Virus record (IMG/VR): IMGVR_UViG_3300030060_001534
Coordinates: 1-43,437 of that record
DNA from: a virus
Length of the DNA stretch: 43,437 nucleotides
Reading direction: 5' to 3' (one strand)
Positions 5,902-43,437 of this stretch are shown here, piece by piece. The notes beneath the pieces were generated by a model, which worked only from the letters and a program-made list of their open reading frames with translations, was not told the origin of the DNA and did not search any database. The translations under genes were made by a program, and so were the position numbers. Numbering within the stretch: position 1 is the first letter of the stretch; every line of letters begins with the position of its first letter.

Positions 5902-5933
5902 TTCTTACCTCCTGTCTCATATCGCCTATATAT

Positions 5934-5939
5934 ATTATA
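5934..5939 (-). promoter_or_regulatory. Putative -10 box for the annealing-protein gene
   Basis: On the minus strand TATAAT lies directly after the stop codon of the small zinc-finger ORF. With a 17-nt spacer it is preceded by a poor -35 (TTAATG). It lies 32 bases upstream of the start at 5901, which has an AGGAGG site. This would let the annealing protein be transcribed apart from the genes upstream. Confidence 0.45.
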
Positions 5940-6080
5940 CTATTTGTTTATTTTATCATTAATCTCTGACAAAAAATATTGTGTTTCTTGAAACATCGGA
6001 CATAAAACATTAGCGCATATTAGTGCCGCCTGTTTTATTCTGAGATGTTTCCCACAATAATAACATATGTTGCTAGCCAT
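5940..6080 (-). CDS. Small zinc-finger protein (46 aa)
   Basis: ATG at 6080 lies one base after the metallophosphoesterase stop and has GAGGAG upstream. The product has CYYC near the start and two further Cys (C22 and C27, in LICANVLC), a C-x2-C...C-x4-C pattern of a small treble-clef or ribbon. The rest is helical and charged. It is one of several tiny Cys-pair proteins in the leftward block. The function is unknown; nucleic-acid binding or anti-host activity is plausible. Confidence 0.55.
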   Translation of the reverse strand: MASNICYYCGKHLRIKQAALICANVLCPMFQETQYFLSEINDKINK

Positions 6081-6081
6081 G

Positions 6082-21763: not shown

Positions 21764-24700
21764 ATGGCAATATTTGGTTACGACCCAATAGACCAAGAAT
21801 TAAATAATTATAATCTTAGAAAAACTAGAGAATCTCAATTCAAAGCTGTAAGAAAAGTCATTGAAGAAAAACCTGAAATAGGTGAAAATTTAGAAGACTT
21901 AACAAATAAACACGGCAATATACTACCTAGAGATATATTAATTGGTGGCGCACTCATGGGATTTAAATCAGATAATCCTGAAATAGCTGCACTTATAAAT
22001 AGACAATTAGAAATTGAAAGTGAAAATCAAAAAAAGTTTGCTCCTAAAGTAAGAGCAGTAGGTAGAGGACTCGTACGTTCAGCTTTTGTTGGAATGGATT
22101 CTTTAGCAGAATATTTTGTTAAAAGACCTTTTCAAGCAGGAGCTAGAACATTAATAGATGCAGGTAAATCACCCATACATGCATGGGGTGCAATGTTTGG
22201 AAGCATTATAGGTGCAGGACAAGGCGATGAATTAATGTTTAGTGCAATGGGATTAGGAGACGAGTATAGAGATAATTTAAAAAAACTTGGTCCTACACAA
22301 GCAGGACGTGCAATAAGACAATTAGCTAAAGGTGAAACAGTTAATTTAGGAGAAGGTTATTTTGGTAATTCTACATTAGCCAAAGATACAGAAATTTATA
22401 AAGAAATTGCTGCACAGATTCAAGACCCTGAACAATTAGCTGAAATAGAAAATGTTATACAACAACAATTAGGTGCGCCTATTACAGCAATAGAAAGAGA
22501 AGCTGTTGAAGGAAACTTATATAAAGGTGTAACTATTAGTCCAGGTAGAGTAACTGCTATGAATTTAGCAGAGCCAGGTACAGATAGATATAAATTTTTA
22601 TCAGGTCTTATTGATGGTGTAGTTACATTAGGTCTTGACCCTTCAAACTTAGTAGGAGGTTGGGCTGTAAGAATGACAAGCAAAGGTAGAAAATTTAAAG
22701 TAGCAGAACTTGCTGAACAAGGTGCAGGCATGGCTAAAGCTAGAAGAATATTAGAAGCTGATGTATTTCAAAAAGTTAGAATTAAAGATGCTAATGGAAA
22801 TGTTGTTATAAGACATGCTGATGTTGGTAGTGAAATAATAGACCATCAAAAGATTTATACATGGGATGAAGTAAGAGAACTATCTCGTAAAGGTGGAAAT
22901 ACAGGTAATAAAAATATATGGGCTAGAAACACAAAAGGAAAAGTAGTAACAAGTAATGTTGTAGCTGATAAAGGAGGAGTAGCAGTACCTGCAGATGTTT
23001 TAATAGATGGAAAAGTAAAAGATGTTTCAGATTTAAAACATAGACCTTTTGGTCTTGGATTACAAAAAACTACTTTGGCTAACAATAGGTATGGAAGTAG
23101 ACATCAAATATTTATAGATAAAGAAATATTACAAACCAAAAGAATATTTGAAGTTAAAAAAGCTAAAGATGGAAGCAAATATTTACAATCAGTTGGAGAT
23201 GCAAAATATAAAATAGATGACCCAGGTGGTAAGTGGATGACAGAATGGTCTAAGAATTATGAAGTAGGAGATTTTGTTACAAATGGTCCTGGAATGTTAG
23301 ATAATGGTATGAAATTTAAAAGTGCTGATGAAGTATTAGATTTTATATTAGCTCATGAAGCAGAACATATTTTAAATTATAGAGGTTTAGGAACTAAAGC
23401 AACACAAAAACTTTATGGTAAAAGAACTAAAGCTGCAAGAGCATTTGGTAATGATAAAAAAGTTAGAGCATTATATAAAGAAAAAGTAGATTTAACAAAA
23501 CAAAAAGATGAAATATTATTAAGAACAAGTTATGACCCTAAAGGCAATAATTTAAAAAGAGTAAATGATTATACAGACAGAATAGATAAAATAGATGTAG
23601 ATATTGCAACGCTTGATTCAACTATGAAAAAAGAAGCAGCATTAATGCGTTATGAAAAAGGTTTAAATGAAAGTGTTTATGAATCTATGGGTAAAGGTTT
23701 AATAACACATATGGATGGTAAAGAAATATTTACTGGCAAAAAAGCAGCAGGTCTTTCTAGTTGGGTAAGACCTTCATTAAATAAAACAATATTTGAAGAG
23801 TGGCATATAGATACAGGTAAAAAGATTTATAATTTTTTACATGACAATATTCAAAAAGGTGGATTAAATCACGAAGACATAAGAAGATTAATGCCTGATG
23901 TATCTGTTGATATGATTGACGATATATTAACTGCAGGAAGTGCAGATGAAATTGGAGACCTTATAGCAAAAGAAGTAAGAGCAGGTAATATTTCAAAACG
24001 TTTAGACCCATATTCATATACATTTAAAGGTGGTGCATCTAAAAAAATAGGTAAATATATAAATAGAAATAACAAACTTGTAGATGACGGAGGAAGAATT
24101 GATTTCTCTGATATGGGAGATTTCCTAGGTGTTGGTGCTGTAGCTAGAAGAAAAGCAAGTGATAGCAAATTATTTAGATTGTTTAAAGAAATTGCACCTG
24201 GAAATATTAATACACATTCTCATGTTTTAGCATTTAAAGGAGTAGAAAAATTAGTAAGAAGCCTACCTTTTAGTAAAAAACAAAAAGGTAAAATATATAA
24301 AGACTTAGCAAATGCTAGTAGACGTATGAATATTTCTGTTATGGATGGACAACCATATTCAAAAATTAGATTAACAGAAGAAATGTATAATATTTTACTT
24401 GGCTCTAAAGATGACCCAGGTGGTATTTTAGATGAGCTTACAAAACTTCTAGCAGCTAAAGGTCATGGTAAAGAAGTATCTAATGGTGTTACAAAATTTA
24501 TTGCAGAGATTAGAGATGCAAGAAAATATTGGGTTGGATTAGTTGGAGATGAAGTTATAGATGTAGCATTTACAGGTGCTAAAAGTAAACCTCCTTCTGC
24601 TACTCACAAACGATTAGCTGATGTACAACAAAGAATTGATGAATTAGATGAATTAACATCTAAAGGAACTAGAGATGAAATAGAAGATTTTATTTATAGA

Positions 24701-27700
24701 ACTTATGATGGAGACGCTGAAGTAGCACAACCAACAGCACAACTTATGACAGAAATGATGACAGGTAATATTCCACTTCCTGATATGGGAGAAGTTTATA
24801 GAATACTTGGAAGTTTTAGAAATAATTTATATTCGTTAACTGGTTTAAATAAGTTACCGTTTATGCCTAAAAGAATAGACCTTCCTCAAATATTAGATAA
24901 AGAAAATAAATTTATTAAGTTAGTAGATAATGTATACGATGATGATTTTGCTATAGCAGCAAGAAAGAACAAAGAGTTTGCAGAATTTTTAACAGGTTGG
25001 AAATATCCAACGTTAGCTGATATAGATACTGCTAAAATTAAAAATCCTAGAAAACATATAGAAAAATTACAACAAAAAGCAAGAGATGAATTATATGAAA
25101 ACTATAAAAGAATTACAGGTAATGAAAGACCACAACAATATGATGGAGATATTCTTTCTGTATTTGGACAATTAGATGAAGTACAAATGATACAAGATGC
25201 AGCTAACGCAGGAAATATTGTAAGTAATGCATTAACAAGACGTTTAGCAAGAGTCTTATATAAAAGACAAAAAACAGGAGCAGCAGCAGATGAATACGAT
25301 AAATTAGTTAATACAGCTTTAACACGTTATGCAAACAATGCTGTTACTCAATTATGGAAACCACTACAATTATTAAGATTTGCTTGGACAGCAAGAGTTA
25401 TTTCAGAAGAACAATTACGTATGTATGCAGCAGATTTAGATAATGTGTGGACAAGTCCTATATCTTTATTTGCTTATGCGTTCGGACAAAAAGCAAGCAA
25501 GGATGTTTTAGGAGGCAATATTAAAATGTCTCTTTTACATGACGCTGCTATGTCAAGAGGTTCACAAGGAATAATGATGAGAAAATCTACAAGCATAGAT
25601 AGATTTTATGATATTGTAAGAAAAAAATTAGCTTTAGGTGATAGTGCAAGTAGAGGTAGGTATGCACAAGGTTGGTCAACTGAAATAACTCATTTAGCAG
25701 AAGATGATATGGCAGTTGAAATAGCAAAAATATTAGGTGGTGTTAAAGGAAAAAACTTTGATACTATGGATGACTTAGCAGATTTTTTAGTTAATCCTGA
25801 AAACCTTAGAGAAGATTTATATAGAGTCTATCAAGACTGGGGAGCATCAGGAGATTTAATATCAGGTCCTATGAGAAAACAAATTGTATCTGATAAAGAC
25901 AGAACATTAGAATTTTTAGAAGGTGTTGCAGCTAGAATAACTGACAAAACAGGTGGTAGTTTTAGAAAGTATATTCTTAAAGATGGTAAAAAAATAGAAA
26001 TACCTTTAGGTGTTTCTTATAAAAGTAAAGATGGAGGACTACCTTTAAGAATGTATTATGAAATTGTAGATTCAGGAAATAAAGAAATTATAGAAGGTAT
26101 AGCTACAGGTAAAGTAAGTTTCTTTCAAAAGGTTGATGATTCAGGAAAAGAAGTATTTAGACAAATTAATTTAAAAAATATGTCTGATAATGATTACAAA
26201 GCATTAAAAGCAGAGTTAGGTAGAAGGGCAGAGTTAGGTCCTGAAGTAGTAAAAGTATCAAGACGTTTAGATAAAACTGCTTTAGAAAAAACAGCACAAG
26301 GTTCAAGAGAGTTTGTTGAAAAAATGTTTAATTTGTTTATGTCAGCACCTACTAATAAACTTTCTAGGTCTCCTGCATTTAAACAATTTTACTGGAGACA
26401 TGTAGCAGATGCAGCAGATAGATTAGACCCTAGGGCATTAGAATCAATTATTGATAATGCTAGAAAAGCTAAAGTTAATAAAAAAGTTATTAAAGAACTT
26501 GAACAAGCAACAGGTCAAATAGGAGGATATAATTTAAATAATCTTAATGATTTTGATGAGCTTATGAAAGCTGCAGCTTTAACTGATGTAGAAGAATTAC
26601 TTTATAATCTAAATAAACGTTCAGAATTTTCACAAGCATTAGAGTTACTATTCCCATTCGCTGAAGTACATAAAGAAATTGCAGGCACATGGACAAGGTT
26701 AATTAGAGAAAATCCAACAAAATTAAGAAAAATGCAGATAACTGTAGATAGTCTAAAAGAAAGCGACCCTACAAACTTTGATGCATTTGGTGGTGACAGC
26801 TCTGATGATTCACAAGCCTTTATATATACTGACCCATTAACAGGAGAAGAGATATATACAATTCCTGTAGTAGATACAGTATTTAATAATATGTTTCAAA
26901 AAATATCTAACGTACCTGGTTCAGCTTCAGCAGATAATATAGATAGTGTTTTACAAGGTTCAGATGAAAATTTAAGAGGACTAATGGAATCAGGATTTCC
27001 AAAAACAGGTGCTGATGTAAGAATGAGAACTGTAGGTTTTACGTCTTCTGCAAACATTGTTGCAGGAGGTATTATACCAGGTGTTGGTCCTGCAATACAA
27101 ATACCTGCTAAATATTTATTACCTAATGATAAAGAAAAAGATGCTATATATCAGACTATATTTCCATATGGCGAACCTGAAACTGTTTTAGATTCTTTTA
27201 TACCTTCATGGTTAAAAAAAGTAATAGGTGCTTTTGATGTAGGTCCTGATTCATGGAGAAGACAATATACTAATGCAGCTAAAGATATTCTTAAAGCAAA
27301 GATATTATCAGGACAAATAGTTATTAATGATGAAAATGATATGTTAGAAGCATTAAAAATTATTAAAAGACAAGCAACAATATTTACTGTGCTTAGAGGT
27401 GTAACACAAGGTGTATCTTTAACAGGTGGTAGTTTTAGATTTGAAGCTGCTGTATCTCCTGGAGGAGAAATGTATATGAATCCTGCTTTAATGAAAGAAC
27501 GAGGACTAGACCCTGATGGAAGATACTTTGCTTTTAATGTATTAGCGTCTCAATATTATAGAATGTACGCAGAAAATAATGGAGATAATGTTAAAACAAC
27601 TCAACAATTTGCAGACATGTTTGGTTATGACCCAACTGCATTATTAATATCTAAATCAAAAGAAATAATTAGAACTCCTTACACTATAGATAATATTGAT

Positions 27701-28393
27701 TATTCCAGGACAAATAAAACTATGCAGTATGCTTATGAAAAATATACAGATGTTGCATATTATTTAAGTCCTGATATTCCAATAGATGAGTTTTCTTATA
27801 AAGCATTTATTGAATCATTTGATGATGATAATATATCAGGTTATACAGCAAGATATGATTTAGGTATAGATGAATGGGCAGCATTATATAACGTAGTTGC
27901 AGGTAAGTTTGCAATGGAAAATTTTAGAAGAGCAATATCTGACCCTTCAAATACAAGACAATATATAGCTAGTTCAAAACTTAGAGATGAAATGATATTT
28001 AGAGCTAACAAATCTTTAGAAGAAATCTTTCCAGGATATGGTGTAAAACCTAGAACTGCTAGTCCTACAGATTATGAATCGTTAGAAAAACAATTAAGAA
28101 AAATGGTTAGAGACCCTAATATTTACAAAGAAAACCGTGACTTTGTAGAAACAACAAATATTTATTTAGCATCTTTAGATGCAATGAGAAGCAGTTTAGA
28201 AAGTAAAACTGGCACAAGGTCTAAAGTAGAAACAAACTTTTTTTCATATACACAAAGACAAGCGCTAGAAAATAAAGCAAAAGAACTATATACTCAATAT
28301 CCACAATGGATTTATATATGGGAAGATGTTTTCAGACCACAGTTACAAGAGGACCAAAGTAAGCTATTATTAGGAGGAAGTAATTTACCTTAA
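21764..28393 (+). CDS. Giant virion/ejection-type protein with HExxH metallopeptidase-like motif (2,209 aa)
   Basis: Sits where podoviruses keep internal virion proteins. The N-terminal part is helical with amphipathic Gly/Ala stretches. A HEAEH motif (residues 531-535, in LDFILAHEAEHILNY) fits a zincin active site, as in phage polyvalent proteins, followed by a long Lys/Asp helical region. The centre and C-terminal half contain helical repeats and a segment ELLFPFAEVHKEIAGTWTRLIRENP (about 1,625-1,650) that I recall from very large structural proteins of marine phages. Many hydrophobic Gly-rich stretches (AGGIIPGVGPAIQIPAKYLL) could cross membranes during ejection. No RNA or DNA polymerase motif was found. 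Probably ejected with DNA; exact function unproven. Confidence 0.7.
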   Translation: MAIFGYDPIDQELNNYNLRKTRESQFKAVRKVIEEKPEIGENLEDLTNKHGNILPRDILIGGALMGFKSDNPEIAALINRQLEIESENQKKFAPKVRAVGRGLVRSAFVGMDSLAEYFVKRPFQAGARTLIDAGKSPIHAWGAMFGSIIGAGQGDELMFSAMGLGDEYRDNLKKLGPTQAGRAIRQLAKGETVNLGEGYFGNSTLAKDTEIYKEIAAQIQDPEQLAEIENVIQQQLGAPITAIEREAVEGNLYKGVTISPGRVTAMNLAEPGTDRYKFLSGLIDGVVTLGLDPSNLVGGWAVRMTSKGRKFKVAELAEQGAGMAKARRILEADVFQKVRIKDANGNVVIRHADVGSEIIDHQKIYTWDEVRELSRKGGNTGNKNIWARNTKGKVVTSNVVADKGGVAVPADVLIDGKVKDVSDLKHRPFGLGLQKTTLANNRYGSRHQIFIDKEILQTKRIFEVKKAKDGSKYLQSVGDAKYKIDDPGGKWMTEWSKNYEVGDFVTNGPGMLDNGMKFKSADEVLDFILAHEAEHILNYRGLGTKATQKLYGKRTKAARAFGNDKKVRALYKEKVDLTKQKDEILLRTSYDPKGNNLKRVNDYTDRIDKIDVDIATLDSTMKKEAALMRYEKGLNESVYESMGKGLITHMDGKEIFTGKKAAGLSSWVRPSLNKTIFEEWHIDTGKKIYNFLHDNIQKGGLNHEDIRRLMPDVSVDMIDDILTAGSADEIGDLIAKEVRAGNISKRLDPYSYTFKGGASKKIGKYINRNNKLVDDGGRIDFSDMGDFLGVGAVARRKASDSKLFRLFKEIAPGNINTHSHVLAFKGVEKLVRSLPFSKKQKGKIYKDLANASRRMNISVMDGQPYSKIRLTEEMYNILLGSKDDPGGILDELTKLLAAKGHGKEVSNGVTKFIAEIRDARKYWVGLVGDEVIDVAFTGAKSKPPSATHKRLADVQQRIDELDELTSKGTRDEIEDFIYRTYDGDAEVAQPTAQLMTEMMTGNIPLPDMGEVYRILGSFRNNLYSLTGLNKLPFMPKRIDLPQILDKENKFIKLVDNVYDDDFAIAARKNKEFAEFLTGWKYPTLADIDTAKIKNPRKHIEKLQQKARDELYENYKRITGNERPQQYDGDILSVFGQLDEVQMIQDAANAGNIVSNALTRRLARVLYKRQKTGAAADEYDKLVNTALTRYANNAVTQLWKPLQLLRFAWTARVISEEQLRMYAADLDNVWTSPISLFAYAFGQKASKDVLGGNIKMSLLHDAAMSRGSQGIMMRKSTSIDRFYDIVRKKLALGDSASRGRYAQGWSTEITHLAEDDMAVEIAKILGGVKGKNFDTMDDLADFLVNPENLREDLYRVYQDWGASGDLISGPMRKQIVSDKDRTLEFLEGVAARITDKTGGSFRKYILKDGKKIEIPLGVSYKSKDGGLPLRMYYEIVDSGNKEIIEGIATGKVSFFQKVDDSGKEVFRQINLKNMSDNDYKALKAELGRRAELGPEVVKVSRRLDKTALEKTAQGSREFVEKMFNLFMSAPTNKLSRSPAFKQFYWRHVADAADRLDPRALESIIDNARKAKVNKKVIKELEQATGQIGGYNLNNLNDFDELMKAAALTDVEELLYNLNKRSEFSQALELLFPFAEVHKEIAGTWTRLIRENPTKLRKMQITVDSLKESDPTNFDAFGGDSSDDSQAFIYTDPLTGEEIYTIPVVDTVFNNMFQKISNVPGSASADNIDSVLQGSDENLRGLMESGFPKTGADVRMRTVGFTSSANIVAGGIIPGVGPAIQIPAKYLLPNDKEKDAIYQTIFPYGEPETVLDSFIPSWLKKVIGAFDVGPDSWRRQYTNAAKDILKAKILSGQIVINDENDMLEALKIIKRQATIFTVLRGVTQGVSLTGGSFRFEAAVSPGGEMYMNPALMKERGLDPDGRYFAFNVLASQYYRMYAENNGDNVKTTQQFADMFGYDPTALLISKSKEIIRTPYTIDNIDYSRTNKTMQYAYEKYTDVAYYLSPDIPIDEFSYKAFIESFDDDNISGYTARYDLGIDEWAALYNVVAGKFAMENFRRAISDPSNTRQYIASSKLRDEMIFRANKSLEEIFPGYGVKPRTASPTDYESLEKQLRKMVRDPNIYKENRDFVETTNIYLASLDAMRSSLESKTGTRSKVETNFFSYTQRQALENKAKELYTQYPQWIYIWEDVFRPQLQEDQSKLLLGGSNLP

Positions 28394-33548: not shown

Positions 33549-34031
33549 ATGGAAGAACCAAAAGAACAACAAGTTGAAGATACTCAGGAGAGTCCTGAAG
33601 AAGGTAGTATTCAACAACTCAGAGATGAATATAAAAAAATCAAAGCTGAGAATAAAGAATACAAGCAAGGGATTATGAATTCTGCGCTAACTTCTATGGG
33701 TCTTGAACCTGATAAAGGTATTGGTAAAGCAGTAACAAAATTATATGATGGCAAGGCAAATGTCGAAGACATCAAAGAATTTGTTGCTAAAGAATTTGGT
33801 GAAGGAGATGCTATTAATGCTGAACCTGCAACTGATGAAACCATTGCTACAAACGTAGTTGAAGCTCAATCACGTGTAGAGCAACTTAATAAATTAGGGA
33901 TAGATAATGAGCCTGCAGAAGCTATGCAGGAGGTAGTTAACTATATAAGAAACCCTGAAACTTCTGTTAAGAATACCATCGGAGCAAAACTTGCGATGAT
34001 GGACGAAATTAAAAAACAAAATAAACAATAG
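33549..34031 (+). CDS. Putative scaffolding protein (160 aa)
   Basis: I choose ATG 33549 because CGGAG lies seven bases upstream; an ATG at 33525 is in frame but has no such site. The protein is acidic and helical, with a coiled-coil-like stretch (IQQLRDEYKKIKAENKEYKQGIM) and a Lys-rich end (MMDEIKKQNKQ). It is placed 32 bases before the capsid gene. Acidic helical proteins with a basic C-terminus directly before the capsid are typical scaffolds. A protease or another role is not suggested by any motif. Confidence 0.65.
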   Translation: MEEPKEQQVEDTQESPEEGSIQQLRDEYKKIKAENKEYKQGIMNSALTSMGLEPDKGIGKAVTKLYDGKANVEDIKEFVAKEFGEGDAINAEPATDETIATNVVEAQSRVEQLNKLGIDNEPAEAMQEVVNYIRNPETSVKNTIGAKLAMMDEIKKQNKQ

Positions 34032-34063
34032 ATATAGCAATATATCGGAAAGGTTAGATTAAT

Positions 34064-35182
34064 ATGGCAGAAATATCGTTAACAAACAGTACGATTTATG
34101 CACAAAATATTAATAACTTTACTGGTGAATTGTTTAAAGTTGGTGGTCAAAGAACTCCTTTACTATCTGCAGTTGGCGGATTGAATGGCGGTAAGACATT
34201 AAACTCTACATATTGGCAAGTCCAAGTAGAAGATAATGCAACCATTTCTTCTGAACCTACTAAAGGTCAAGAAGGTTCTACACCTACAGAATATCTTGGT
34301 AGAGACAGAGCTGCATACACTTATGTAACTCAAATCTTCCATAAAGGTGTTCAGATGACTTATACAGCTTTAGCATCCACAGGAAATCAAAATCCTTTTG
34401 ATTTGTCAGCTAACATTGCAAACTCTTCTGATGGAGACGGAACAACAACAGCAGCAGATAAATTAGGATTATTCGGTGGTAATCCAGTAAACGATGAATT
34501 TGCTTTACAGCTTGAAAAAGCTATGGAAAAAGTAGCAAGAGAAGTTGAGTGGTTTGCATTCAATGGTTCTTTCTCAGATGGTGCTAACACAACACCTGGG
34601 TCAGGAACTAGAGAAATGTACGGTATTGATGTATGGATTACATTAAACAAGAACGCTAGCAACTCTGCAGCAGTAAACCCATTAGGTGGGAACTGCTACT
34701 ACAATGACGCTTCAGGTGACGGAACTGGTTCAGCTCAAGTCATCTCTTTCGCAACTATATCAGGTGCGTTAAAGAGAATGTATGACAACCATGCTCCAAT
34801 GAAACAACCTGTACTATGCGTTAGTCCACAACAATTACTAGACCTTAACAATGAACTTGTTAAAGGTACAGTTGATATAGCAGGTGCAATCATTCCTAGA
34901 GATAGAAATGTTGCAGGTGTTGATATTGATACAGTAGTCACTCCATTTGGTGCAATAGGACTAATGGTTATTGACCCTGACATCATGCCAACAGGAACTG
35001 CTTTCATCTTAGACTTGGCTTATATACAACCAGTATTTACCAACATCCCAGGATTTGGTACTGTGTTTGTAAGAGACCTAGACCAAGATGCCAACGCAAG
35101 AATTGGTAAAGCAATATACATGGAGATGGGATTCGAATTCGGACCTCCTTCATACCATTGTAAGATTCAAGCAGTAGCGTAA
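34064..35182 (+). CDS. Major capsid protein, SU10-like (DUF5309 type)
   Basis: The 372-residue protein follows the scaffold gene and has the signature order of SU10-type capsids. There is a short N-terminal arm, TPLLSAVGGLNGG, an E-loop region (WQVQVEDN...GRDRAAYTYVTQIFHKGVQMTYTALA), the spine helix (ALQLEKAMEKVAREVEWFAFNG), GTREMYGIDVWI, then P-domain strands and a conserved C-terminal region (LMVIDPDIMPTGTAFILDLAYIQPVF). It folds as HK97-type hexon. Fewer rare codons and more C-ending codons than its neighbours suggest selection for high expression. Bracketed by its own promoter and terminator. Confidence 0.85.
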   Translation: MAEISLTNSTIYAQNINNFTGELFKVGGQRTPLLSAVGGLNGGKTLNSTYWQVQVEDNATISSEPTKGQEGSTPTEYLGRDRAAYTYVTQIFHKGVQMTYTALASTGNQNPFDLSANIANSSDGDGTTTAADKLGLFGGNPVNDEFALQLEKAMEKVAREVEWFAFNGSFSDGANTTPGSGTREMYGIDVWITLNKNASNSAAVNPLGGNCYYNDASGDGTGSAQVISFATISGALKRMYDNHAPMKQPVLCVSPQQLLDLNNELVKGTVDIAGAIIPRDRNVAGVDIDTVVTPFGAIGLMVIDPDIMPTGTAFILDLAYIQPVFTNIPGFGTVFVRDLDQDANARIGKAIYMEMGFEFGPPSYHCKIQAVA

Positions 35183-35206
35183 AGTTATAATAATAAATTG
35201 AAGATT

Positions 35207-35233
35207 AGGGTGGAACTCCACCTCCACCCTTTT
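35207..35233 (+). terminator. Intrinsic terminator after the capsid gene
   Basis: AGGGTGG (35207-35213) pairs with CCACCCT (35224-35230), with a ten-base loop and then TTTT-C-TT. It lies 24 bases past the capsid stop and is the clearest rho-independent terminator on the plus strand. Confidence 0.8.
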
Positions 35234-35255
35234 CTTCTGCTATAGTAAGGAAGAT

Positions 35256-35588
35256 ATGATAAGTAAAACAGCTTTAATAGATGTATCAGAAGATAACAAT
35301 GATAGCCTAGCTGTAAAGACAGATGGCATGTTACTTTGCGGTATTGAGTTCCCTGCAGCAATGACAGGTTCTGCAATTACATTTGATTTCTCTATGAACG
35401 GTAGCACAGGATGGGTTGATGTTTTTGAAACAGACGGCACAGAAGTTAGCTACACAGTTTCAGCAGGAAACCTATTAAGAGTAGACCCTTCAGGTTGGGC
35501 TTTTGCAAGTAATGGATATATCAGAGTATCATCTAATGGTACAGAAGCAGCAGACAGAAGCATAGCATTATACTTTAGACACAGTTAG
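35256..35588 (+). CDS. Small beta-rich head or decoration protein (110 aa)
   Basis: AAGGAAG precedes the ATG. The sequence is almost all beta strands (MLLCGIEFPAAMTGSAITFDFSMNGSTGWVDVFE, GYIRVSSNG), ending with IALYFRHS. This form is typical of small capsid decoration or neck proteins found after capsid genes. It comes after the terminator, so it is expressed less than the capsid. No specific family. Confidence 0.6.
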   Translation: MISKTALIDVSEDNNDSLAVKTDGMLLCGIEFPAAMTGSAITFDFSMNGSTGWVDVFETDGTEVSYTVSAGNLLRVDPSGWAFASNGYIRVSSNGTEAADRSIALYFRHS

Positions 35589-35596
35589 GAGTAACA

Positions 35597-35791
35597 ATGA
35601 GTACGCTCTTAATGCTTAAAGAAGGTAGAGTTTTAGATATAGATTCTAAAGGTAGTACACCTATTCAAGAATCTTATCCTATGGAAGCTGCTGTACCTGT
35701 AAGTGAAGTACGTAGTGCTGCTTTTGGTATGGCTATGTTCGGACAATCACATTTTGCTAAAACAGTAAACGCAGAAGATAAGGCAGCTTAA
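35597..35791 (+). CDS. Small hypothetical protein (64 aa)
   Basis: GGAG lies six bases upstream of the ATG. The polypeptide starts MSTLLMLKEGRVLDID and is otherwise polar; it ends in TAATG with the connector gene. Possibly a head-tail region adaptor; not recognised. Confidence 0.55.
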   Translation: MSTLLMLKEGRVLDIDSKGSTPIQESYPMEAAVPVSEVRSAAFGMAMFGQSHFAKTVNAEDKAA

Positions 35792-36792
35792 TGAGTTCAA
35801 ATATTAGAGGATTAGTAGATAGAGTTTTTAGAGAGTATCTTGAACCTATGGATGACTTGTCATCATATACAGCATTAAGTTCTTCTATGAACTCAAGTGT
35901 TACAACACTATCTTTTAATGGAGATTTGTTAACCCAAGAAGAAAAAGATGCAATGGATGCAGGAACTGTTATTGAATGTGAACATGAGTTAATGTATTGT
36001 ACAGCTCTTGATACAGTTAATAATCAAGTAACAGTTGTTAGAGGTGCAAGAGGTACATCAGCAGACTCACATGATAGTGGAGCTATAGTTAAAATTGCAC
36101 CACCATTCCCAAGGAAAGTTGTATTCGATGCAGTATGTGACCAAATTAAAAACTTATATCCTACATTATTTGCAGTAGACACACAAGAGATAACTGTAAG
36201 TGATGGTTATACTTTAATAGGAACATATGATGCTCCTGGTACACATAATAATTTAGTAGCACCAATAAAAGCTATATCACAATATACAGATTTTTCTGCA
36301 GGTGCTGATTCAACTACAGTAACTTATAGAGGAGTTGCAGTTGAGTTAGTTGATTTGCCTAATCCTTTTACATATACTGACGACACAGGTACAGAAAGAA
36401 CAATAACTTATACAACAGGTCCTGACAATGTTAAGGCTGTACAGTTTACTGGTATATCTTCAGGACATAAAGTTTATGTTACATTTAAAAAGAAGTTTAT
36501 AGAACCAACATTAGAATCTGACACACTTACAACAATAGGTTTAGAAGATGAATATGAACCTATTATCATGGCAGGAGTTGCAGCACAAATGATGTCAGGA
36601 AGAGATATACCTAGTGCAACATCAGATTATATTTCAGAACAATTAGAGTTAGAAAGTTTTCCTGTTGACTCTGCTACAAGAATTAGAAACTCGTTACTTG
36701 CATATCAAAGAGCATTATTACAACAAGCTAGAAAAGATTTAAGAGCTAGATATCCTGAACCAGTAACAATAAATAATATTGCTTATTCATAA
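35791..36792 (+). CDS. Head-tail connector / adaptor-like protein (333 aa)
   Basis: It begins with a helix (NIRGLVDRVFREYLEPMDD). A beta domain with DGDLL/MYCTALDTVNNQVTVVRGARGT follows, and then APPFPRKVVFDAVCDQIKNLYP. The C-terminus has a helical bundle (EDEYEPIIMAGVAAQMMSGRDIP ... RIRNSLLAYQRALLQQARKDLRARY). This N-terminal VRGARGT segment and the C-terminal helices resemble adaptor proteins encoded after the capsid in podoviruses. Start and stop overlap the neighbours by one base each. Assignment is by pattern and order. Confidence 0.6.
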   Translation: MSSNIRGLVDRVFREYLEPMDDLSSYTALSSSMNSSVTTLSFNGDLLTQEEKDAMDAGTVIECEHELMYCTALDTVNNQVTVVRGARGTSADSHDSGAIVKIAPPFPRKVVFDAVCDQIKNLYPTLFAVDTQEITVSDGYTLIGTYDAPGTHNNLVAPIKAISQYTDFSAGADSTTVTYRGVAVELVDLPNPFTYTDDTGTERTITYTTGPDNVKAVQFTGISSGHKVYVTFKKKFIEPTLESDTLTTIGLEDEYEPIIMAGVAAQMMSGRDIPSATSDYISEQLELESFPVDSATRIRNSLLAYQRALLQQARKDLRARYPEPVTINNIAYS

Positions 36793-38732
36793 TGCCTAGG
36801 TTAACTACACAAGCAGAGGTACTTAATCCTAAACGAAAAGGTTATGACTTTCGTATTGATAATCAACTGTACAGAGCAGCAATAGCTCCTGAAAGACAGA
36901 TGACAATACAGTCATCAGATGTTCAAGACCAATCAGTTAATGTAAAACAAAATGCAGAAGACTTTACTTCTAACATTGGTCGTATATATTCAAGGAATAA
37001 TTTTACAGGTGGTTCTAATTTAGATAATGCACATAGACGAGATGGTACTCCACAAGATTCTAAAAGATTTTGGGATAGTGAAGGTGTAGATGTATTTAAC
37101 CAAGACTTAGGTAAAGCATATAATGTTCAGTTATTAAATACTACAGAATTAGAGCAAGCATTAAGTTCAAGTGACAATGATAATTCTATAGCTGTAGCAG
37201 GAACAAATATTTTTGTTTCTGATGATGCTACTTTATATATATCTACTGATGGAGGAGATACATGGAGTACACAATCTACAAACTTGACAGCAGGTTATCA
37301 CATAAAAGGTTTAGCTGTAGATGGTACAGATTTATATATAACTGCTAACAATGGTTCGGCAGGAGAAATAGAATTACTTCCTACTGCTAATGCTACTCCT
37401 GGTTCATCAACACAAAAAATGTCTGCTGCTATCTACGATAATATATGGTCAGTTAAAGGGCAATTCTTAGTAACTATAGGTAATGCAATACATCCTTATG
37501 ATGGTAATACAACTGTAGGTACTGCAATTATTACATTAGGAACAGGAGAAACATTTACAGATGTTTGTGATGCAGGTGCTGTTGTATTAGCTACAGCTTC
37601 AGATGGTAAGATATATTCTTTTAAAGATATAAGTGGTACGCTAACTGCTAAAGGTCAATCAGAACTTACAGGAGAATCTCCAACTTGCATAGTTGAATCA
37701 CAGGGTATAATTTTTTATGGCACCAAAGCCACACAAATAACAGGAAACAAAGTTATTGGAAGATTATACCGTGCCGATTTAACAGTTGCAGATGACTTGT
37801 ATGTATTAGCAAACAATCAATTAATTAAACAATGGGATGTAGATGCTATTGACAATGCACCTTATTATTTATACACAACAAGAGATTCTATTTATTGTGG
37901 AATAAAAGAATCAGGTAGCACAACATTTTTATGGAGATATTATTTACCTACTTCAGGTATAGCTAGATATTATAAAGCAAGTGCAGGTGGAAATGTTTAT
38001 GGTATATGTCATGTAGATGAAAAGTTTTTACTTACAGTTAGTGGTAGTGGAGTTTATCAACAAACAGATAATTATGAAGAAGAAGGTTATATTATAGCAC
38101 CTCCTGCTGATTTTTTTACAGCAGAATCTAAGCAATATGTAGGTGCAGAAGTAGATGTAGAAGAACTTGCAACTGGTGAAAGTGTAGAGTTACATATATC
38201 AAATACATACGAAGCAATAAATGATTCTAACGATAGTTCTTTTGATTTAGAAATTAATATACAATCAGGTATTGGTGGAGAAGAAGTACAAATATCAAGA
38301 GTTGCTAGATATGTTGTACCTAAAATAGTTTTAAAAGGTAATGGTACATCAACTCCAAAGTTTAAATCTTTTAATGTTAGAGCTTTGGCAAGACCTGAAT
38401 TAGTAGTTGTACAGATACCAGTTAATTTATCTGATAGAGTTGAACGACCATATAGAAAACCTATACTCGTTAAAAATTTAGGAGAAACAATTTATCAATC
38501 TTTAAAAGATAAAGAAGGTAGTGCAGTAACACTTGAAATCTATGACCCTGCAGAAGTAATAAGAGGTGTTGTAGAAAAAATAAGTTATCCAATACAATCT
38601 AATCCAAACATTGGCAGCGTGACACAGTATGCTATACTTACAGTCAGAGGTACTCGACAAGAGACTTTTGCAGCAGTTACATCAGGCGATATACTTGGTG
38701 TAAATGGATTTGCAATTATGAGATTTGGATAG
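36792..38732 (+). CDS. Tail nozzle / hub protein with beta-propeller (646 aa)
   Basis: After a 100-residue N-terminal arm, repeated beta segments follow with a perfect Asp-box, STDGGDTW (151-158), and similar short strands (LYITANNGSAGEIELL, GKIYSFKDISGTL). This supports a beta-propeller over about residues 120-430. The C-terminal third is beta-rich (VELHISNTY, FKSFNVRALARPELVVVQIPVNL). In podoviruses a large protein of this kind after the connector is the tail nozzle or tubular protein B, the channel for DNA. No catalytic motif seen; a sialidase-like role is possible but less likely. Confidence 0.65.
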   Translation: MPRLTTQAEVLNPKRKGYDFRIDNQLYRAAIAPERQMTIQSSDVQDQSVNVKQNAEDFTSNIGRIYSRNNFTGGSNLDNAHRRDGTPQDSKRFWDSEGVDVFNQDLGKAYNVQLLNTTELEQALSSSDNDNSIAVAGTNIFVSDDATLYISTDGGDTWSTQSTNLTAGYHIKGLAVDGTDLYITANNGSAGEIELLPTANATPGSSTQKMSAAIYDNIWSVKGQFLVTIGNAIHPYDGNTTVGTAIITLGTGETFTDVCDAGAVVLATASDGKIYSFKDISGTLTAKGQSELTGESPTCIVESQGIIFYGTKATQITGNKVIGRLYRADLTVADDLYVLANNQLIKQWDVDAIDNAPYYLYTTRDSIYCGIKESGSTTFLWRYYLPTSGIARYYKASAGGNVYGICHVDEKFLLTVSGSGVYQQTDNYEEEGYIIAPPADFFTAESKQYVGAEVDVEELATGESVELHISNTYEAINDSNDSSFDLEINIQSGIGGEEVQISRVARYVVPKIVLKGNGTSTPKFKSFNVRALARPELVVVQIPVNLSDRVERPYRKPILVKNLGETIYQSLKDKEGSAVTLEIYDPAEVIRGVVEKISYPIQSNPNIGSVTQYAILTVRGTRQETFAAVTSGDILGVNGFAIMRFG

Positions 38733-38742
38733 GAAAATAGTA

Positions 38743-38748
38743 TATAAT
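38743..38748 (+). promoter_or_regulatory. Possible -10 box for the fibre operon
   Basis: TATAAT lies 11 bases before the ATG at 38760, in a 27-base gap after the nozzle gene. No -35 and no TG extension are visible, so it is weakly supported. Confidence 0.3.
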
Positions 38749-38759
38749 GAAAGATAGAT

Positions 38760-39410
38760 ATGACAGCTAGAGAGACTAATTTAGTAAACGCTTTTGAAAC
38801 CACACTTGCTGCACAGCTAGCTAGTGGTGGTACTTCAATGAATTTAACAGATGACCCAGGAGTAGATTCTCCTGCTTATTTTGTAATAGACCCTGATAAT
38901 GACAGCACAAGAGAAGTTGTATTATGGTCAACAGGAACAAACCATGCTGCTGCTACAGTCACAAGAGATATTGATAGCAAACATGGTACTGACCCTACAC
39001 ATGCATCAGGAACAAAAGTTAGATTAGCTGTAGTTAAACAACATTTTGACGAAGCACATGATGCTATACAACAAGGTTTTATATTAGAAGATGGAGATGG
39101 TACTGAAGTTACTATTGCTCCTGCTGTTGCATCAGGTGTATATACAGCAAGAGAAGTTAAGTTTGTCGAAGGTGGCGGTATCGATATCAACTGGACAGAT
39201 GTTACAGATGGTACAGATGCAGACCCTTATGATTTAACTTTTACTGTAGAAGTTACTGCATCAGAAATTGCTGCAGGTACACTTGTTACAGAATCAGAAA
39301 GTATCTCATCAAACGATAATGACACAACAATTCCAACATCAGCAGCAGTCAAAGACTATGTAGATACTCGTGGCTTCGCAGATATTGGATTAATAATAGC
39401 ACTAGGATAA
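38760..39410 (+). CDS. Tail fibre/spike base protein (216 aa)
   Basis: An N-terminal domain (TNLVNAFETTLAAQLASGGTSMNLTDDPG...REVVLWSTGTNHAAATVTRDID) is followed by a beta-rich centre. A conserved link ends it, SNDNDTTIPTSAAVKDYVDTRG, the usual connector of phage fibre proteins before a trimeric shaft or a second subunit. It is the first of the fibre-type genes and would bind the tail; later small genes would supply the receptor-binding tips. GAAAGATAG may act as a weak ribosome-binding site. Confidence 0.65.
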   Translation: MTARETNLVNAFETTLAAQLASGGTSMNLTDDPGVDSPAYFVIDPDNDSTREVVLWSTGTNHAAATVTRDIDSKHGTDPTHASGTKVRLAVVKQHFDEAHDAIQQGFILEDGDGTEVTIAPAVASGVYTAREVKFVEGGGIDINWTDVTDGTDADPYDLTFTVEVTASEIAAGTLVTESESISSNDNDTTIPTSAAVKDYVDTRGFADIGLIIALG

Positions 39411-39420
39411 GAGGAATAAT

Positions 39421-39750
39421 ATGGCAAATGTATTTAAGAACGCTGTACTAGATGGACCAGGAACTCTTACTGATTTAATTGGTGCATTAGATGCAAACCA
39501 TGAGGCAATAGTCTTGATGTTAAGAGCAACTAATGTAGATGGAACTAATGATGCAACAGTAGATGTAAGAGTAGTAAAGTCAAGTAGTGATTCATATATA
39601 GCTAAGACTATGACAGTACCTGCTGACACTTCTTTAGATGTATTAGGTACATCTAAATTAGTTTTAATGGCAACAGATAAAATACAAGTACTAGCATCAG
39701 CAACAGGCGATATAGAATTTTTTGCAAGTTATCTTGAAATAACAGATTAG
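39421..39750 (+). CDS. Small beta-sandwich tail protein (109 aa)
   Basis: A strongly beta-type sequence (AIVLMLRATNVDGTNDATVDVRVVKSS, KTMTVPADTSLDVLG, KLVLMATDKIQVLASATGDIEFFASYLEI) that I know as a common small protein near tail fibres of marine phages, with unknown function. GAGGAATA precedes the ATG. Similar in form to the protein at 35256. Confidence 0.6.
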   Translation: MANVFKNAVLDGPGTLTDLIGALDANHEAIVLMLRATNVDGTNDATVDVRVVKSSSDSYIAKTMTVPADTSLDVLGTSKLVLMATDKIQVLASATGDIEFFASYLEITD

Positions 39751-39759
39751 GAGTAACCC

Positions 39760-40383
39760 ATGTCATATGGATATTTGGGAGATACTTCTACCAAGATAAA
39801 ACAAGTTAAGAAAAATGATGGCATTATTACAGCTAGTGAAGCGTTTGATTTAACAACTCAAGGTCATTTAGGTGGCTCATTAGAACTTATTCAAACTCAA
39901 ACACATTCAGGTAATGTAGCTTATGTAGATTTTACAAGTTTAGGTGGAGACAAATATGACTTATTATATGTAACTTACTTTGATGTAATATTCGCAAGTC
40001 AACAAGTTCCTGCTATGAGATTTAGAGAAGCAGGTACTTGGGAAGAAGCTGATGTTTATGAAACTGCTGAAGAATGGAAAGCTAATAATGCTACATCTGA
40101 AGTAAGAGAAACTACTCATGGCTTTATGTTTTTAGGAAATGATTGTCAAGGTCCATGGAGTGGAAACCTTTATATTTATAATGCAAATAAAAGTGGTAGA
40201 TATACACACATGAATCACCAAACTACAGATTATGACCCTGATAATGGTAGATATGTAAATACTTGGGGTGGTGCATCACTACCACAAGAAAGTGTAGTTG
40301 ATGGTATCAGAATTGGTTCTTCAGATTTTAGTACGAACATGACAAGTTATAACATGAGTTTATATGGAATAAAACAAATATGA
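39760..40383 (+). CDS. Fibre cassette protein A1 (207 aa)
   Basis: Starts with SYGYLGDTSTKIKQVKKNDGIIT, the form of N-terminal adaptors of small fibre proteins (GY-x-G...K/N-N-x-G-x-x-T). A beta core follows (LELIQTQTHSGNVAYVDFTSLGGDKYDLLYVTYFDV), and the end is MSLYGIKQI. The order and core match the gene at 41374 (A2). It is a candidate receptor-binding tip subunit. GGAG lies six bases upstream, and it overlaps the next gene by four bases. Confidence 0.65.
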   Translation: MSYGYLGDTSTKIKQVKKNDGIITASEAFDLTTQGHLGGSLELIQTQTHSGNVAYVDFTSLGGDKYDLLYVTYFDVIFASQQVPAMRFREAGTWEEADVYETAEEWKANNATSEVRETTHGFMFLGNDCQGPWSGNLYIYNANKSGRYTHMNHQTTDYDPDNGRYVNTWGGASLPQESVVDGIRIGSSDFSTNMTSYNMSLYGIKQI

Positions 40384-40889
40384 GTAGTAGTTTAAGATTA
40401 GTAAAAGAAGCATCAGGTAGCTCAGTTGCATCTATTTCATTAGATGATTGTTTTACTTCTGACTTTGAAATATATAAAGTGTTTGTTACTATGGAAGGAT
40501 TTTCAGGTAACCATGCTTTAAACATGAGATTTATTTCAAATGGAAGTATTGTAACTGAAAGTACTTCTTATGATTATAGTAGGCAAATGATTAAATCTGA
40601 TACAACTTTTGCAAATGACAATAGTGCTTCTGCTGCTTTTATATATACAGGAGAATTAGATGATGATGGTATGGGTCAAATGATAGATGTTTTTAGTCCA
40701 TATGATAGTTCTGTATATACTCAAATGATGATGAGAACTAGTGGACATTCAGGAAGTAATTGGAGAGGACAATTTGGTGGAGGTGCTTTACAACATCAAT
40801 CATCAGTTACAGGGGTACATTTTTATTCAAATAATTCAGGTGCAATTACTACAATTAAAGTATCAGTATATGGATTGAGAGAATCATAA
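40380..40889 (+). CDS. Fibre cassette protein B1 (169 aa)
   Basis: Begins SSSLRLVKEASGSSVASISLDDCF, then the beta core EIYKVFVTMEGFSGNHALNMRFISNGS, and ends TIKVSVYGLRES. The start, the Asp-(D/N)-Cys-Phe motif and the end match the gene at 42011 (B2). It overlaps A1 by four bases and shares one base with C1 (TAATG). Confidence 0.65.
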   Translation: MSSSLRLVKEASGSSVASISLDDCFTSDFEIYKVFVTMEGFSGNHALNMRFISNGSIVTESTSYDYSRQMIKSDTTFANDNSASAAFIYTGELDDDGMGQMIDVFSPYDSSVYTQMMMRTSGHSGSNWRGQFGGGALQHQSSVTGVHFYSNNSGAITTIKVSVYGLRES

Positions 40890-41377
40890 TGGGTAAATTA
40901 TTATATGTAGCTTCAGCAACAGCAGGTGCAAGTGATGGTACTTTATCTGTGACTGGTATTAATAGTGATGATGTATATGTTGTATATTGTTATGATATGT
41001 ACCCTGCAACAGATACTGCTACAACTTATTGGAGAGTAACTAAAAGTGGTACACAAGATACTGCTTCAAGCTATACATATGGAATGGATTATAATGCAGA
41101 TTTACAGAACACAGGTCAAGCACAATCAGAAGGTTTGTTTGGACATAGTCAAGCACCAGGTAAAAGAATAGTATTTAGAGTAGAATGTTATAACTTTAAT
41201 TCATCTTCTAAAAAAAGTTTTGCTACTATATCAAGTCAAATTGGTGCAAATTCCTTTTGCTATGGTGGTTTTGTTCATGAGGTTACAAGTGCTTCAGATG
41301 GTTTAGGAATATTTCCAAATGCAGGAAATGTAGCTGAAGGTTCTAGGTTAGTATTATATAAGCAGGTAGCATCATGA
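40889..41377 (+). CDS. Fibre cassette protein C1 (162 aa)
   Basis: Begins GKLLYVASATAGASDGTLSVTGINSDDVYVVYCYDMYPAT and keeps the beta core with a TDTATTYWRVTKSG strand pair. Its end (GSRLVLYKQVAS) lacks the perfect YG, an exception in the family. Corresponds by position to 42538 (C2). Overlaps A2 by four bases. Confidence 0.6.
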   Translation: MGKLLYVASATAGASDGTLSVTGINSDDVYVVYCYDMYPATDTATTYWRVTKSGTQDTASSYTYGMDYNADLQNTGQAQSEGLFGHSQAPGKRIVFRVECYNFNSSSKKSFATISSQIGANSFCYGGFVHEVTSASDGLGIFPNAGNVAEGSRLVLYKQVAS

Positions 41378-42018
41378 GTAAGTATGGATACATAGGACCT
41401 GATAGTGCAACACCAACGCAAAGTCCAAGAAATAATACAGGTGTTTTTTCTATTACTGACCAAAGAAAATTATTAGATGTAAATAAATTTACAAGTCTTG
41501 GACAATTAGAATTAATAGAAACACAAGCAAAAGCTAGTGCTGCTGCAGCTATAGATTTTACAAACCTAGGTAATTATGATGTACATATGATGACTGTATC
41601 AGATTATCAAGTAGCAACTGATGGACAAACAATGGGCTTAAGGTTTTCTGTTAATGGTGGCACAACTTTTATTTCAAGTGGTTATCAATGGGCAGGACAA
41701 AATGGACAAGGTAATGGAACTTTTACTGAATATCGTACTACAAGTTCTGCTTACTTAGAAATAAATAGATTTAATGGTAGTGCAGCTAGAGAAAATGCAA
41801 ATGCTTATATATATTTTTATCACTTATCTGACCCTACACATTTTAGTCATTTAAGTTACCATTGTACTTATACTGCAGAATACACAGAAAGACAAGCATT
41901 TCAGTATGGTGTTTGTATAGATGATACAGCTTTAGGAATAAATGCTATACGACTTTTCGCAAATTCAGGAAACTGTTCAGCAGATGTGTCTTTATATGGA
42001 GTAAAATATTATGAGTAG
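41374..42018 (+). CDS. Fibre cassette protein A2 (214 aa)
   Basis: SKYGYIGPDSATPTQSPRNNTGVFSITDQRKLL is the conserved N-terminal adaptor seen in many small phage fibre proteins. LELIETQAKASAAAAIDFTNLGNYDVHMMTVSDY and LRFSVNGG form the core, and it ends SLYGVKYYE. Homologous to A1. Overlaps B2 by 8 nt. Confidence 0.65.
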   Translation: MSKYGYIGPDSATPTQSPRNNTGVFSITDQRKLLDVNKFTSLGQLELIETQAKASAAAAIDFTNLGNYDVHMMTVSDYQVATDGQTMGLRFSVNGGTTFISSGYQWAGQNGQGNGTFTEYRTTSSAYLEINRFNGSAARENANAYIYFYHLSDPTHFSHLSYHCTYTAEYTERQAFQYGVCIDDTALGINAIRLFANSGNCSADVSLYGVKYYE

Positions 42019-42538
42019 TTTACAATTAATTAGAGCTGTACCAGTTACATCAGGTGTAACTGCTTTCAGTATTGATAATTGTTTTAACACAGGTACTTAT
42101 TTAAAACACAGAATTGTTATTAAAGGAGTATATCAAAGTAGTGATGTACAAAACTTTATTAATGGTATTAGATTAATAGATAATTCAGGCAGCGTAATAA
42201 CAGGTAATGAATATAATATTGCAACACATACTACTGCAACATACCAAAACTATTCAGATGAAAAAAGTACAGGTGTTGATTATTGGGATTTAGCAAATTA
42301 TGCAGACCAATTATCAGAAGGACAAACATCTTCAGTAGTAGAAATTTTTAATGCTAATGTAGCTGAATTTACAATGATGACTTGTCAATCTATGGGTGGA
42401 AATAGTGATGGAAAATTAGGTGGTCATGGAACAGGTGTGCATAGAGTAGCAGAAATTATACGAGGTTTTCAATTATACGAATCAACAGGTGCTAACACTT
42501 TTGGTGGTGGCTCTATAGCAGTATATGGAGTAAGATAA
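42011..42538 (+). CDS. Fibre cassette protein B2 (175 aa)
   Basis: Begins SSLQLIRAVPVTSGVTAFSIDNCF, with the same DNCF motif as B1, then core strands (YLKHRIVIKGVYQSSDVQNFINGIRLIDNSG) and an end SIAVYGVR. Start overlaps A2, and its stop shares a base with C2. Confidence 0.65.
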   Translation: MSSLQLIRAVPVTSGVTAFSIDNCFNTGTYLKHRIVIKGVYQSSDVQNFINGIRLIDNSGSVITGNEYNIATHTTATYQNYSDEKSTGVDYWDLANYADQLSEGQTSSVVEIFNANVAEFTMMTCQSMGGNSDGKLGGHGTGVHRVAEIIRGFQLYESTGANTFGGGSIAVYGVR

Positions 42539-43071
42539 TGGCTACAAAAAAATCAATGGTTTTAATTGAAAGCAAAACTGCTAGTGATGATGCAACTATT
42601 AGTTTAGGTGGTGCTAATTGGATTGATTCATATGATGTTTACATTGTACAATTTAGTAATGTACATTGTGTTACAGATGCTCAAGAAATTAATTTTAGAT
42701 TTTTAGATACATCAAACAATCCTATTACTACAAGCACATATGATTCCTCTTTCACAGAATTAAAATCAGATGCTGCATTTGGAGATGGTTATGGTGACAA
42801 TGTTGCAACAGCATTTCTAACAAGTGGTGGTTTAGGTAATGATACTAATGAACAACTAAATGGTACTGTTCATATATTTCAATCAAATAATACAGCAGAG
42901 TACACTTTTTATACAACAGAGACGTCATACTTAAACGGTAGTGGAGTTCTTAGAGGCAACCGTGGAGGTGGCGTAATTACAACTGCTGCAGGAACAAAAG
43001 GTATTCAAATATATGCAGCTAGTGGTAATTTAACTAGCGGTAATTTTGAACTTTATGGTTTAAAGAAGTAG
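42538..43071 (+). CDS. Fibre cassette protein C2 (177 aa)
   Basis: Begins ATKKSMVLIESKTASDDATISLGGANWIDSYDVYIVQFSNV, keeps the TDAQEINFRFLDTS strand pair, and ends GNFELYGLKK. Probable allele or paralogue of the partial gene at 1-492, to which NVHCVTDAQEINF aligns. Followed by a gap with two overlapping TATAAT boxes (43075-43085) and the small gene at 43106. Confidence 0.65.
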   Translation: MATKKSMVLIESKTASDDATISLGGANWIDSYDVYIVQFSNVHCVTDAQEINFRFLDTSNNPITTSTYDSSFTELKSDAAFGDGYGDNVATAFLTSGGLGNDTNEQLNGTVHIFQSNNTAEYTFYTTETSYLNGSGVLRGNRGGGVITTAAGTKGIQIYAASGNLTSGNFELYGLKK

Positions 43072-43105
43072 TAATATAATATAATATGGTAACATAGGAG
43101 AGAAT

Positions 43106-43437
43106 ATGGCAATTAAAACATTAGAACAATTTACTGCAGAAGCACAGACAGAGATAGATGCTCTTAAAACTGCTAATGGTGGTGACGGTATGTTCGCTCA
43201 AGTCAATAACGAAAGAAGAGAGTTTACTGACGCAGAGTATGACCAAGCTGTAACTGACAGAGCTGCATATAAATTAGACCAACAAGATAATAACTATAGT
43301 AGAGCAAGACAATCTGCTTACGCTGCAATAGGAGACCAACTTGATATGTTATATCATGACATGGCTGCTGATAAAGGTGATAAGACAGGCGACTGGTTTG
43401 CTGCTGTAAAAAAAGTTAAAGACGATAACCCAAAGCC
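43106..43437 (+). CDS. Small conserved tail-associated protein (QLDMLYHD motif), copy 2, 3' truncated
   Basis: Homologous to 519-857 from the first codon, with the same QLDMLYHDMAADKGDKTGDWF segment; the window ends inside the KDDNPKP part, three residues before the expected stop. GGAGAG lies about seven bases upstream. Differences cluster in the first 77 codons (for example K20/L, K30/F, A55/Y), while the last 77 nt are identical to copy 1. Confidence 0.65.
   Translation, partial: MAIKTLEQFTAEAQTEIDALKTANGGDGMFAQVNNERREFTDAEYDQAVTDRAAYKLDQQDNNYSRARQSAYAAIGDQLDMLYHDMAADKGDKTGDWFAAVKKVKDDNPK
43361..43437 (+). repeat. 77-nt exact direct repeat, terminal copy
   Basis: Identical to 774-850; see that entry. 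It ends exactly at the contig end. Confidence 0.85.

Follow-up and report, generated by a model that had tools for sequence, protein, structure and literature searches.

Two consecutive triplets of paralogous genes occupy positions 39760 to 43071 of the window, i.e., the whole 43,437-nucleotide stretch of marine phage DNA analyzed here (IMG/VR record IMGVR_UViG_3300030060_001534), and they probably encode two receptor-binding heads, each assembled as a heterotrimer of subunits A, B, and C and shuffled in register at the gene junctions. The array comprises six ORFs lying end to end, which code for proteins of 207, 169, 162, 214, 175, and 177 residues, with offsets of -4, -1, -4, -8, and -1 nucleotides between neighboring ORFs. 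The six genes and their ABC-ABC order, both reported in an earlier note on this DNA, were confirmed. Sequence hallmarks listed in that note were also found, namely, an N-terminal GYxG in both A1 and A2, a start of the SSLxLI/V type and a DxCF motif in B1 and B2, and a hydrophobic-YG ending in five of the six proteins, the exception being C1, which ends in VLYKQVAS. The assignment of the virus to the small podoviruses could not be established, as the tail type is settled by no family match; the capsid protein of the window is closest to those of phages of actinobacteria. The features of the array and its surroundings are as follows (designations starting with L refer to related loci).

1 to 492, plus strand: C2-slot gene of another strain, with its 5′ end cut (class C2, 47-bit margin; 93% to L023, 84% to L025)
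519 to 857, plus strand: U1, complete small gene behind the array, corresponding to U2 at this site in a different strain
38760 to 39410, plus strand: 216-residue protein, upstream left flank of the island, conserved (96% to L021)
39421 to 39750, plus strand: 109-residue protein, upstream left flank of the island, conserved (82% to L021, 100% to L025)
39760 to 40383, plus strand: A1, putative adaptor at residues 1 to 38 (GYLG) and β-sandwich core (class A1, 49-bit margin)
40364 to 40480, plus strand: A1/B1 junction, conserved, aligning to L021 and L011 even where the genes do not
40380 to 40889, plus strand: B1, core only, without anchor (class B1, 58-bit margin)
40866 to 40978, plus strand: B1/C1 junction, conserved, alignable to L021, L014, and L011
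40889 to 41377, plus strand: C1, core only, without anchor (class C1, 66-bit margin)
41354 to 41421, plus strand: C1/A2 junction, including the beginning of the A2 adaptor, conserved (90% to L021, where a Gly-rich fiber comes next)
41374 to 42018, plus strand: A2, putative adaptor at residues 1 to 40 (GYIG) and core (AF2 pLDDT 87)
42011 to 42538, plus strand: B2, core only (class B2, 56-bit margin)
42538 to 43071, plus strand: C2, core only (class C2, 72-bit margin; AF2 pLDDT 92.6; phrog_14820, E value 5e-16)
43106 to 43437, plus strand: U2, small gene following the array and truncated where the contig stops (its protein 89% identical to that of U1), candidate fiber chaperone

The six proteins and the fragment at 1 to 492 belong to one homologous domain family. 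The AF2 models of A2, whose core mostly exceeds a pLDDT of 90, and of C2 are β-sandwiches. Foldseek returned weak matches to solved structures, i.e., galectin CRDs (probability up to 0.97, TM 0.28 to 0.45, E value around 0.01), the carbohydrate module of a phage Dit, and a cyanophage tailspike. The BFVD yielded 113 matches at E ≤ 0.001 (best TM 0.93, E values down to 4e-21), including collagen-repeat, Stf-repeat, and tail-fiber proteins. Collagen-repeat and Stf-repeat fibers are trimeric. HMM matches placed the family domain as a single C-terminal head in 40 longer proteins, 31 of which have a YIG-type adaptor, and together with the BFVD matches they indicate that the array proteins share their fold with the domain found at the C terminus of fiber proteins. 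Searches of Pfam, NCBIfam, and PDB sequences with the domain gave nothing significant, and the cellular genomes scanned with a C2 protein contained no relative. According to the models, all six proteins thus represent one β-sandwich domain that caps many phage fibers and is unnamed in Pfam. From its fold, position, and variability, we infer that the A, B, and C heads probably bind receptors, with glycans as the probable ligand, which supports the earlier suggestion that a variable array suits receptor recognition.

The weak likeness to galectins and carbohydrate modules would also suit lectin-like proteins that decorate the surface of the capsid or the tail rather than tail-fiber heads. We find this highly improbable, because the corresponding slot in cultured relatives comes after the tail genes, including annotated tail fiber and virion structural genes, because the same domain caps fiber proteins, because A2 has its adaptor in common with a Gly-rich fiber, and because the related triplet of Pelagibacter phages is followed by a gene of a tail assembly chaperone family (the last two points are detailed below).

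The array had been proposed to stem from an old duplication of an A-B-C cassette, which would make A1 and A2, B1 and B2, and C1 and C2 mutual best partners. With the sequences of the window alone, the best partner of B1 was C2 (40 bits, versus 20 bits for B2), a result that by the criterion of the earlier note would speak against the duplication. This pairwise test is misleading because the divergence exceeds what single sequences can resolve, and we therefore collected relatives using A2 (24 loci), U (69 loci), a C2 protein (39 loci), or a Pelagibacter-phage protein (80 loci). With adaptor-free cores and matches taken outside the gene's own positional class, the best match was of the same type for A1, B1, and C1 (30/30 each), B2 (27/27), and A2 and C2 (26/27 each). 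Profile-profile scores ranged from 300 to 428 within types versus 139 to 200 between types. In a maximum likelihood tree of 99 cores, the types required five label changes, compared with a minimum of three and a mean of 50.5 after shuffling, and the exceptions were the long-branch second triplets of L024 and L025. The six-class models, from which the slot labels were taken, including those of the truncated loci L132 and L019, labeled arrays outside model building in the expected order. The cross-type affinity seen in the window was thus gone with relatives and adaptor-free cores, and best matches, profiles, and tree concur to indicate that the ordered duplication of the cassette is real and old.

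The number of genes follows a strict pattern. Among 99 distinct clusters of short family genes that were complete and flanked by at least 250 nucleotides on each side, 68 had three genes, 30 had six, and one had a single gene, with the proviso that counts across related loci are non-independent events; clusters of two, four, five, or seven genes were absent from this set. None of the 105 ABC-type arrays, whether complete or truncated, departed from the cyclic A-B-C order, and three-gene arrays were either all type 1 (L052) or all type 2 (e.g., L010, L037, L065, L067, and L091). One or three genes, never two, four, or five, is the pattern expected of a threefold head.

Alternatively, each of the six proteins might form its own homotrimeric head or knob, the array being a set of independent adhesins that were duplicated and diverged. 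The domain does occur as a single short gene in L074 and in the isolate Lederberg; these lone genes fit a homotrimer and show that the domain does not require three genes. Another tandem fiber family of Lederberg has four paralogues, and the genes of the arrays are exchanged singly, as described below. We nevertheless regard independent homotrimers as unlikely, because the copy number is three or six in 98 of the 99 complete clusters, because all 105 arrays keep the order and the types never mix, and because B and C have no anchor, unlike the four Lederberg paralogues, each of which has its own N-terminal extension.

The presence of an anchor in one type only bears on how the proteins of a triplet are organized. 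The extra N terminus of approximately 40 residues with the GYxG motif is found in A1 and A2 alone, and the B and C proteins start with the core itself. The triplet 2 slot of L014 and L021 is occupied by a protein of 310 to 334 residues whose A2-type N terminus (MSKYGYIGPDSATPTQSS...) leads into a glycine-rich domain (PF21722); next to it lies a gene for a protein of 121 to 126 residues. In L099, a similar Gly-rich fiber sits between the two triplets. As a Gly-rich fiber with an A2-type N terminus replaces triplet 2, the N terminus of A appears to act as a virion adaptor, and as triplet 2 is swapped whole for one such fiber, the triplet behaves as a single fiber module.

An anchor on A only, combined with the fixed gene order, could also denote a linear chain or stacked fiber in which A would sit on the virion and carry B, and B would carry C, with no closed threefold head. 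Phage fibers built of serial proteins do exist, e.g., the long tail fiber of T4. Such a chain seems quite unlikely to us, as it offers no reason for stopping at three twice independently, the B and C proteins lack connector extensions, and in other proteins the domain forms a terminal head.

Triplets of the same domain are also present in cultured phages. HTVC010P, HTVC019P, and HTVC034P, which infect Pelagibacter, have exactly three family genes each, in a fixed order and annotated as hypothetical proteins only, and this form of the triplet was found at 344 loci in one scan. In profiles and in the tree, the members of these triplets are nearer to one another than to A, B, or C. Because they are mutually closest, the triplet state would have been reached separately in this lineage, unless gene conversion homogenized the three genes; with that caveat, the three-paralogue state appears to have arisen at least twice. 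The best match was in the same slot in 197 of 204 cases, with nine discordant pairs. These triplets thus resemble the array of the window by their homologous domain, their three tandem genes, their fixed order, and the exchange of single slots among relatives. They differ from it by their apparently separate triplication, by their short N termini, which are similar in all three genes, and by the next gene, which belongs to the Phage_tail_APC family (tail assembly chaperone) and takes the place of U as its positional counterpart.

The borders of the variable region are sharp. The DNA of L021 is 95% identical to that of the window up to position 39891, shortly beyond the A1 adaptor, and 98% identical from position 501 on, whereas the array proteins of the two are approximately 33% identical (backbone, 95 to 98%). 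Upstream, the 109-residue flanking protein gave a weak match to phrog_1276 (E value 7.5e-6). Judging from these alignments, in which conserved flanks enclose content that is replaced between close relatives, the array forms a hypervariable island with sharp limits. The earlier note had located the variability at the end of the array; the variability is real, but it extends over the whole array. As for the switchable array that it envisaged, we saw no in-genome switch, and the variation consists of swaps of genes or modules at conserved junctions. We also rejected hypermutation by a reverse transcriptase, with the array as the target of a diversity-generating retroelement, because the record contains no match to PF00078.

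The two ends of the contig coincide with this island. Locus L014 has, in one contiguous piece, the counterpart of positions 34015 to 39903, an array, U, and the counterpart of positions 860 to 6216, and in the window positions 490 to 850 are repeated at 43077 to 43437 with 87% DNA identity. The contiguity of L014 implies that both window ends overlap at U, and on these alignments the ends are one and the same site in two strains. The further C variant described at 1 to 492 is thus indeed of the C type, but it does not represent an extra copy, and we discarded a seventh gene in favor of the other strain's allele of 42538 to 43071. Where the flank is long enough, the U gene comes immediately after the array in almost every case. 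It matched only PHROGs of unknown function and no family of NCBIfam or Pfam above the cutoff, named chaperone families included; from its position, U is likely to be a fiber chaperone. In L074, U-like genes come after single fiber genes.

Within the island, single genes are shared between otherwise divergent arrays. Thirty-nine pairs of arrays share one slot only (≥75% identity), with all other comparable slots below 60%, and all six slots are represented (e.g., B1, 96% between L006 and L047; B2, 95% between L035 and L112; C1, 96% between L066 and L105; C2, 95% between L112 and L115). The shared blocks mostly start within the last few to approximately 30 nucleotides of the preceding gene and stop early in the next one; if the next gene is an A, they stop close to where its adaptor ends. 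The remaining junctions of such pairs form isolated conserved islands, with up to 100% identity over 52 nucleotides. Across 34 six-gene arrays, mean identity was 0.59 to 0.77 in the first 20 nucleotides of the genes versus 0.30 to 0.34 in mid-gene. Exchange is faithful to the slot: 326 of the 355 gene pairs with at least 60% identity occupy the same slot, 29 are of the same type in the other triplet, and none is cross-type, the maximum identity between types being 43%. Since the junction DNA is partly slot-specific, this fidelity may result from recombination, from protein interfaces, or from both, and it could arise from the junction DNA alone. Distance correlations were higher within triplets than between them (0.48 versus 0.25). 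With two divergent arrays removed, the excess persisted for triplet 1 only, so that this weak signal of coevolution is partly driven by those two arrays.

Junctions of such high identity are also places where short-read assemblers may jump from one strain to another; the shuffled arrays are metagenome contigs, and strains are mixed at the ends of the window itself. Chimeras at conserved junctions may account for part of the sharing. That all of it is an assembly artifact is, however, very unlikely: the shared genes are about 91 to 96% identical rather than 100%, the contigs come from different metagenomes, the pattern recurs in the separate lineage of the Pelagibacter phages, and an artifact would leave the rule of three unexplained.

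Heterotrimers of paralogous subunits have precedents. In complement C1q, three paralogous jelly-roll heads encoded by neighboring genes form one heterotrimeric recognition unit. The likeness of the array to C1q/TNF-like heads lies in the working idea only and implies no common descent; C1q or TNF chains were absent from the best 50 structure matches listed. A phage example is described in the accessible text of a 2026 preprint, in which gp35, gp36, and gp37 of the cluster B5 mycobacteriophage Mysterious form a β-sandwich heterotrimer that attaches to the tail via N-terminal arms, as an accessory ring of a siphophage baseplate (PMC13252515). In its cluster mate Acadian, which we used as a proxy, gp35 to gp37 are encoded by three adjacent genes for proteins of approximately 205 residues with 4-nucleotide overlaps, and two of them are clear paralogues. 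As far as that text goes, the array resembles this system by its three adjacent, overlapping genes, which are paralogous (in that system, at least two of them), and by the β-sandwich; it differs in that it shows no detectable relationship in sequence and in that the Mysterious proteins form a baseplate accessory ring. The Acadian proteins gave no significant match to the class models (hhalign probability of 0.3% or less) and showed no detectable sequence relation to the Pelagibacter triplet. By these comparisons we rejected homology, and the array is not a member of the Mysterious family, but it could plausibly work like that heterotrimer.

The array also recalls the metaviromic, or hypervariable, host-recognition islands of marine phages, which harbor lectin-like, C1q-like, and tail-fiber genes (PMC3909814; for Polarivirus skadi, PMC10504331). 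From the accessible text of these two sources, the likeness concerns the sharply bounded fiber region, the turnover among close relatives, and the conserved number and order of genes. Obligate triplets, slot types, and single-gene exchange at junctions are not described in that text, the subscription literature lying outside our search.

We propose that each head would be a 1:1:1 heterotrimer of the paralogous β-sandwich subunits A, B, and C, produced in similar amounts from their overlapping, coupled genes. The GYLG- or GYIG-type adaptor of A would anchor the head on the virion. The unanchored B and C subunits would be held by packing against A, and U may help assembly. Heteromeric tips, one of the possibilities raised in the earlier note, are therefore likely. 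Conserved DNA at the junctions, in the adaptor, and in U would allow homologous recombination in register, by which a single gene or a triplet could be exchanged or a different fiber could take the place of a triplet, and re-mixed heads would change the host or receptor range. We consider the case about evenly balanced for the broader proposal, namely, a combinatorial receptor-binding system in which slot-specific cassettes of heterotrimeric heads are re-mixed, whole triplets included, to give new specificities, and in which sets of three paralogues evolved on at least two occasions.

The usual view of phage receptor-binding heads is that of homotrimers altered by point mutation or by exchange of the whole fiber. 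If our proposal is true, slot-faithful swapping of single subunits would provide common marine phages with a combinatorial library, present in nature, from which to vary host recognition. It would also help explain variable islands in which the number and order of genes are kept despite sequence turnover. The assembly rule of three or six is testable, with triplets available in cultured Pelagibacter phages.

The isolate Lederberg EXVC029P carries tandem fibre genes of another family, four paralogues followed by a U-like gene, one resembling the candidate fibre chaperone gene behind the array (L217:2673-4653 and L216:1-98). They are of the ITPSSTSSKI type and related to an annotated C1q-like protein. 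Their number and the N-terminal extension that each of them possesses contrast with the rule of three of the array, i.e., clusters of three or six genes. At L074:1-4400, unrelated single fibre genes stand in a row upstream of the six-gene array, most with their own U-like gene behind them. At two Pelagibacter-phage-type loci (L147:3572-7247 and L172), a distinct second triplet precedes pa-pb-pc, a separately derived triplet of the same domain family.

Positions 1-850 and 43077-43437 represent one genomic place from two strains, found at opposite contig ends. The record, though classed as linear, is therefore probably a near-complete, circularly permuted genome.

Two other proteins are encoded elsewhere in the window. 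The first (1787-3868, 693 aa) has a signal-like N terminus and a very long, acidic, Glu-rich body. It had no PHROG match but is conserved among relatives, at 98% for L021 and roughly 50% for the others. The second (21764-28393, 2209 aa), whose gene adjoins those for the terminase and a putative tail lysozyme, had no Pfam match and is possibly an injected virion protein.

The following genes lie on the minus strand:
5059-5901, minus, Rad52-like (weak match, score just under the cut-off)
6082-7146, minus, metallophosphatase-like (weak match)
9063-9752, minus, MoxR/AAA_5 ATPase

The putative Rad52-like protein could provide the recombination for cassette exchange, the slot-faithful swapping of single array genes.
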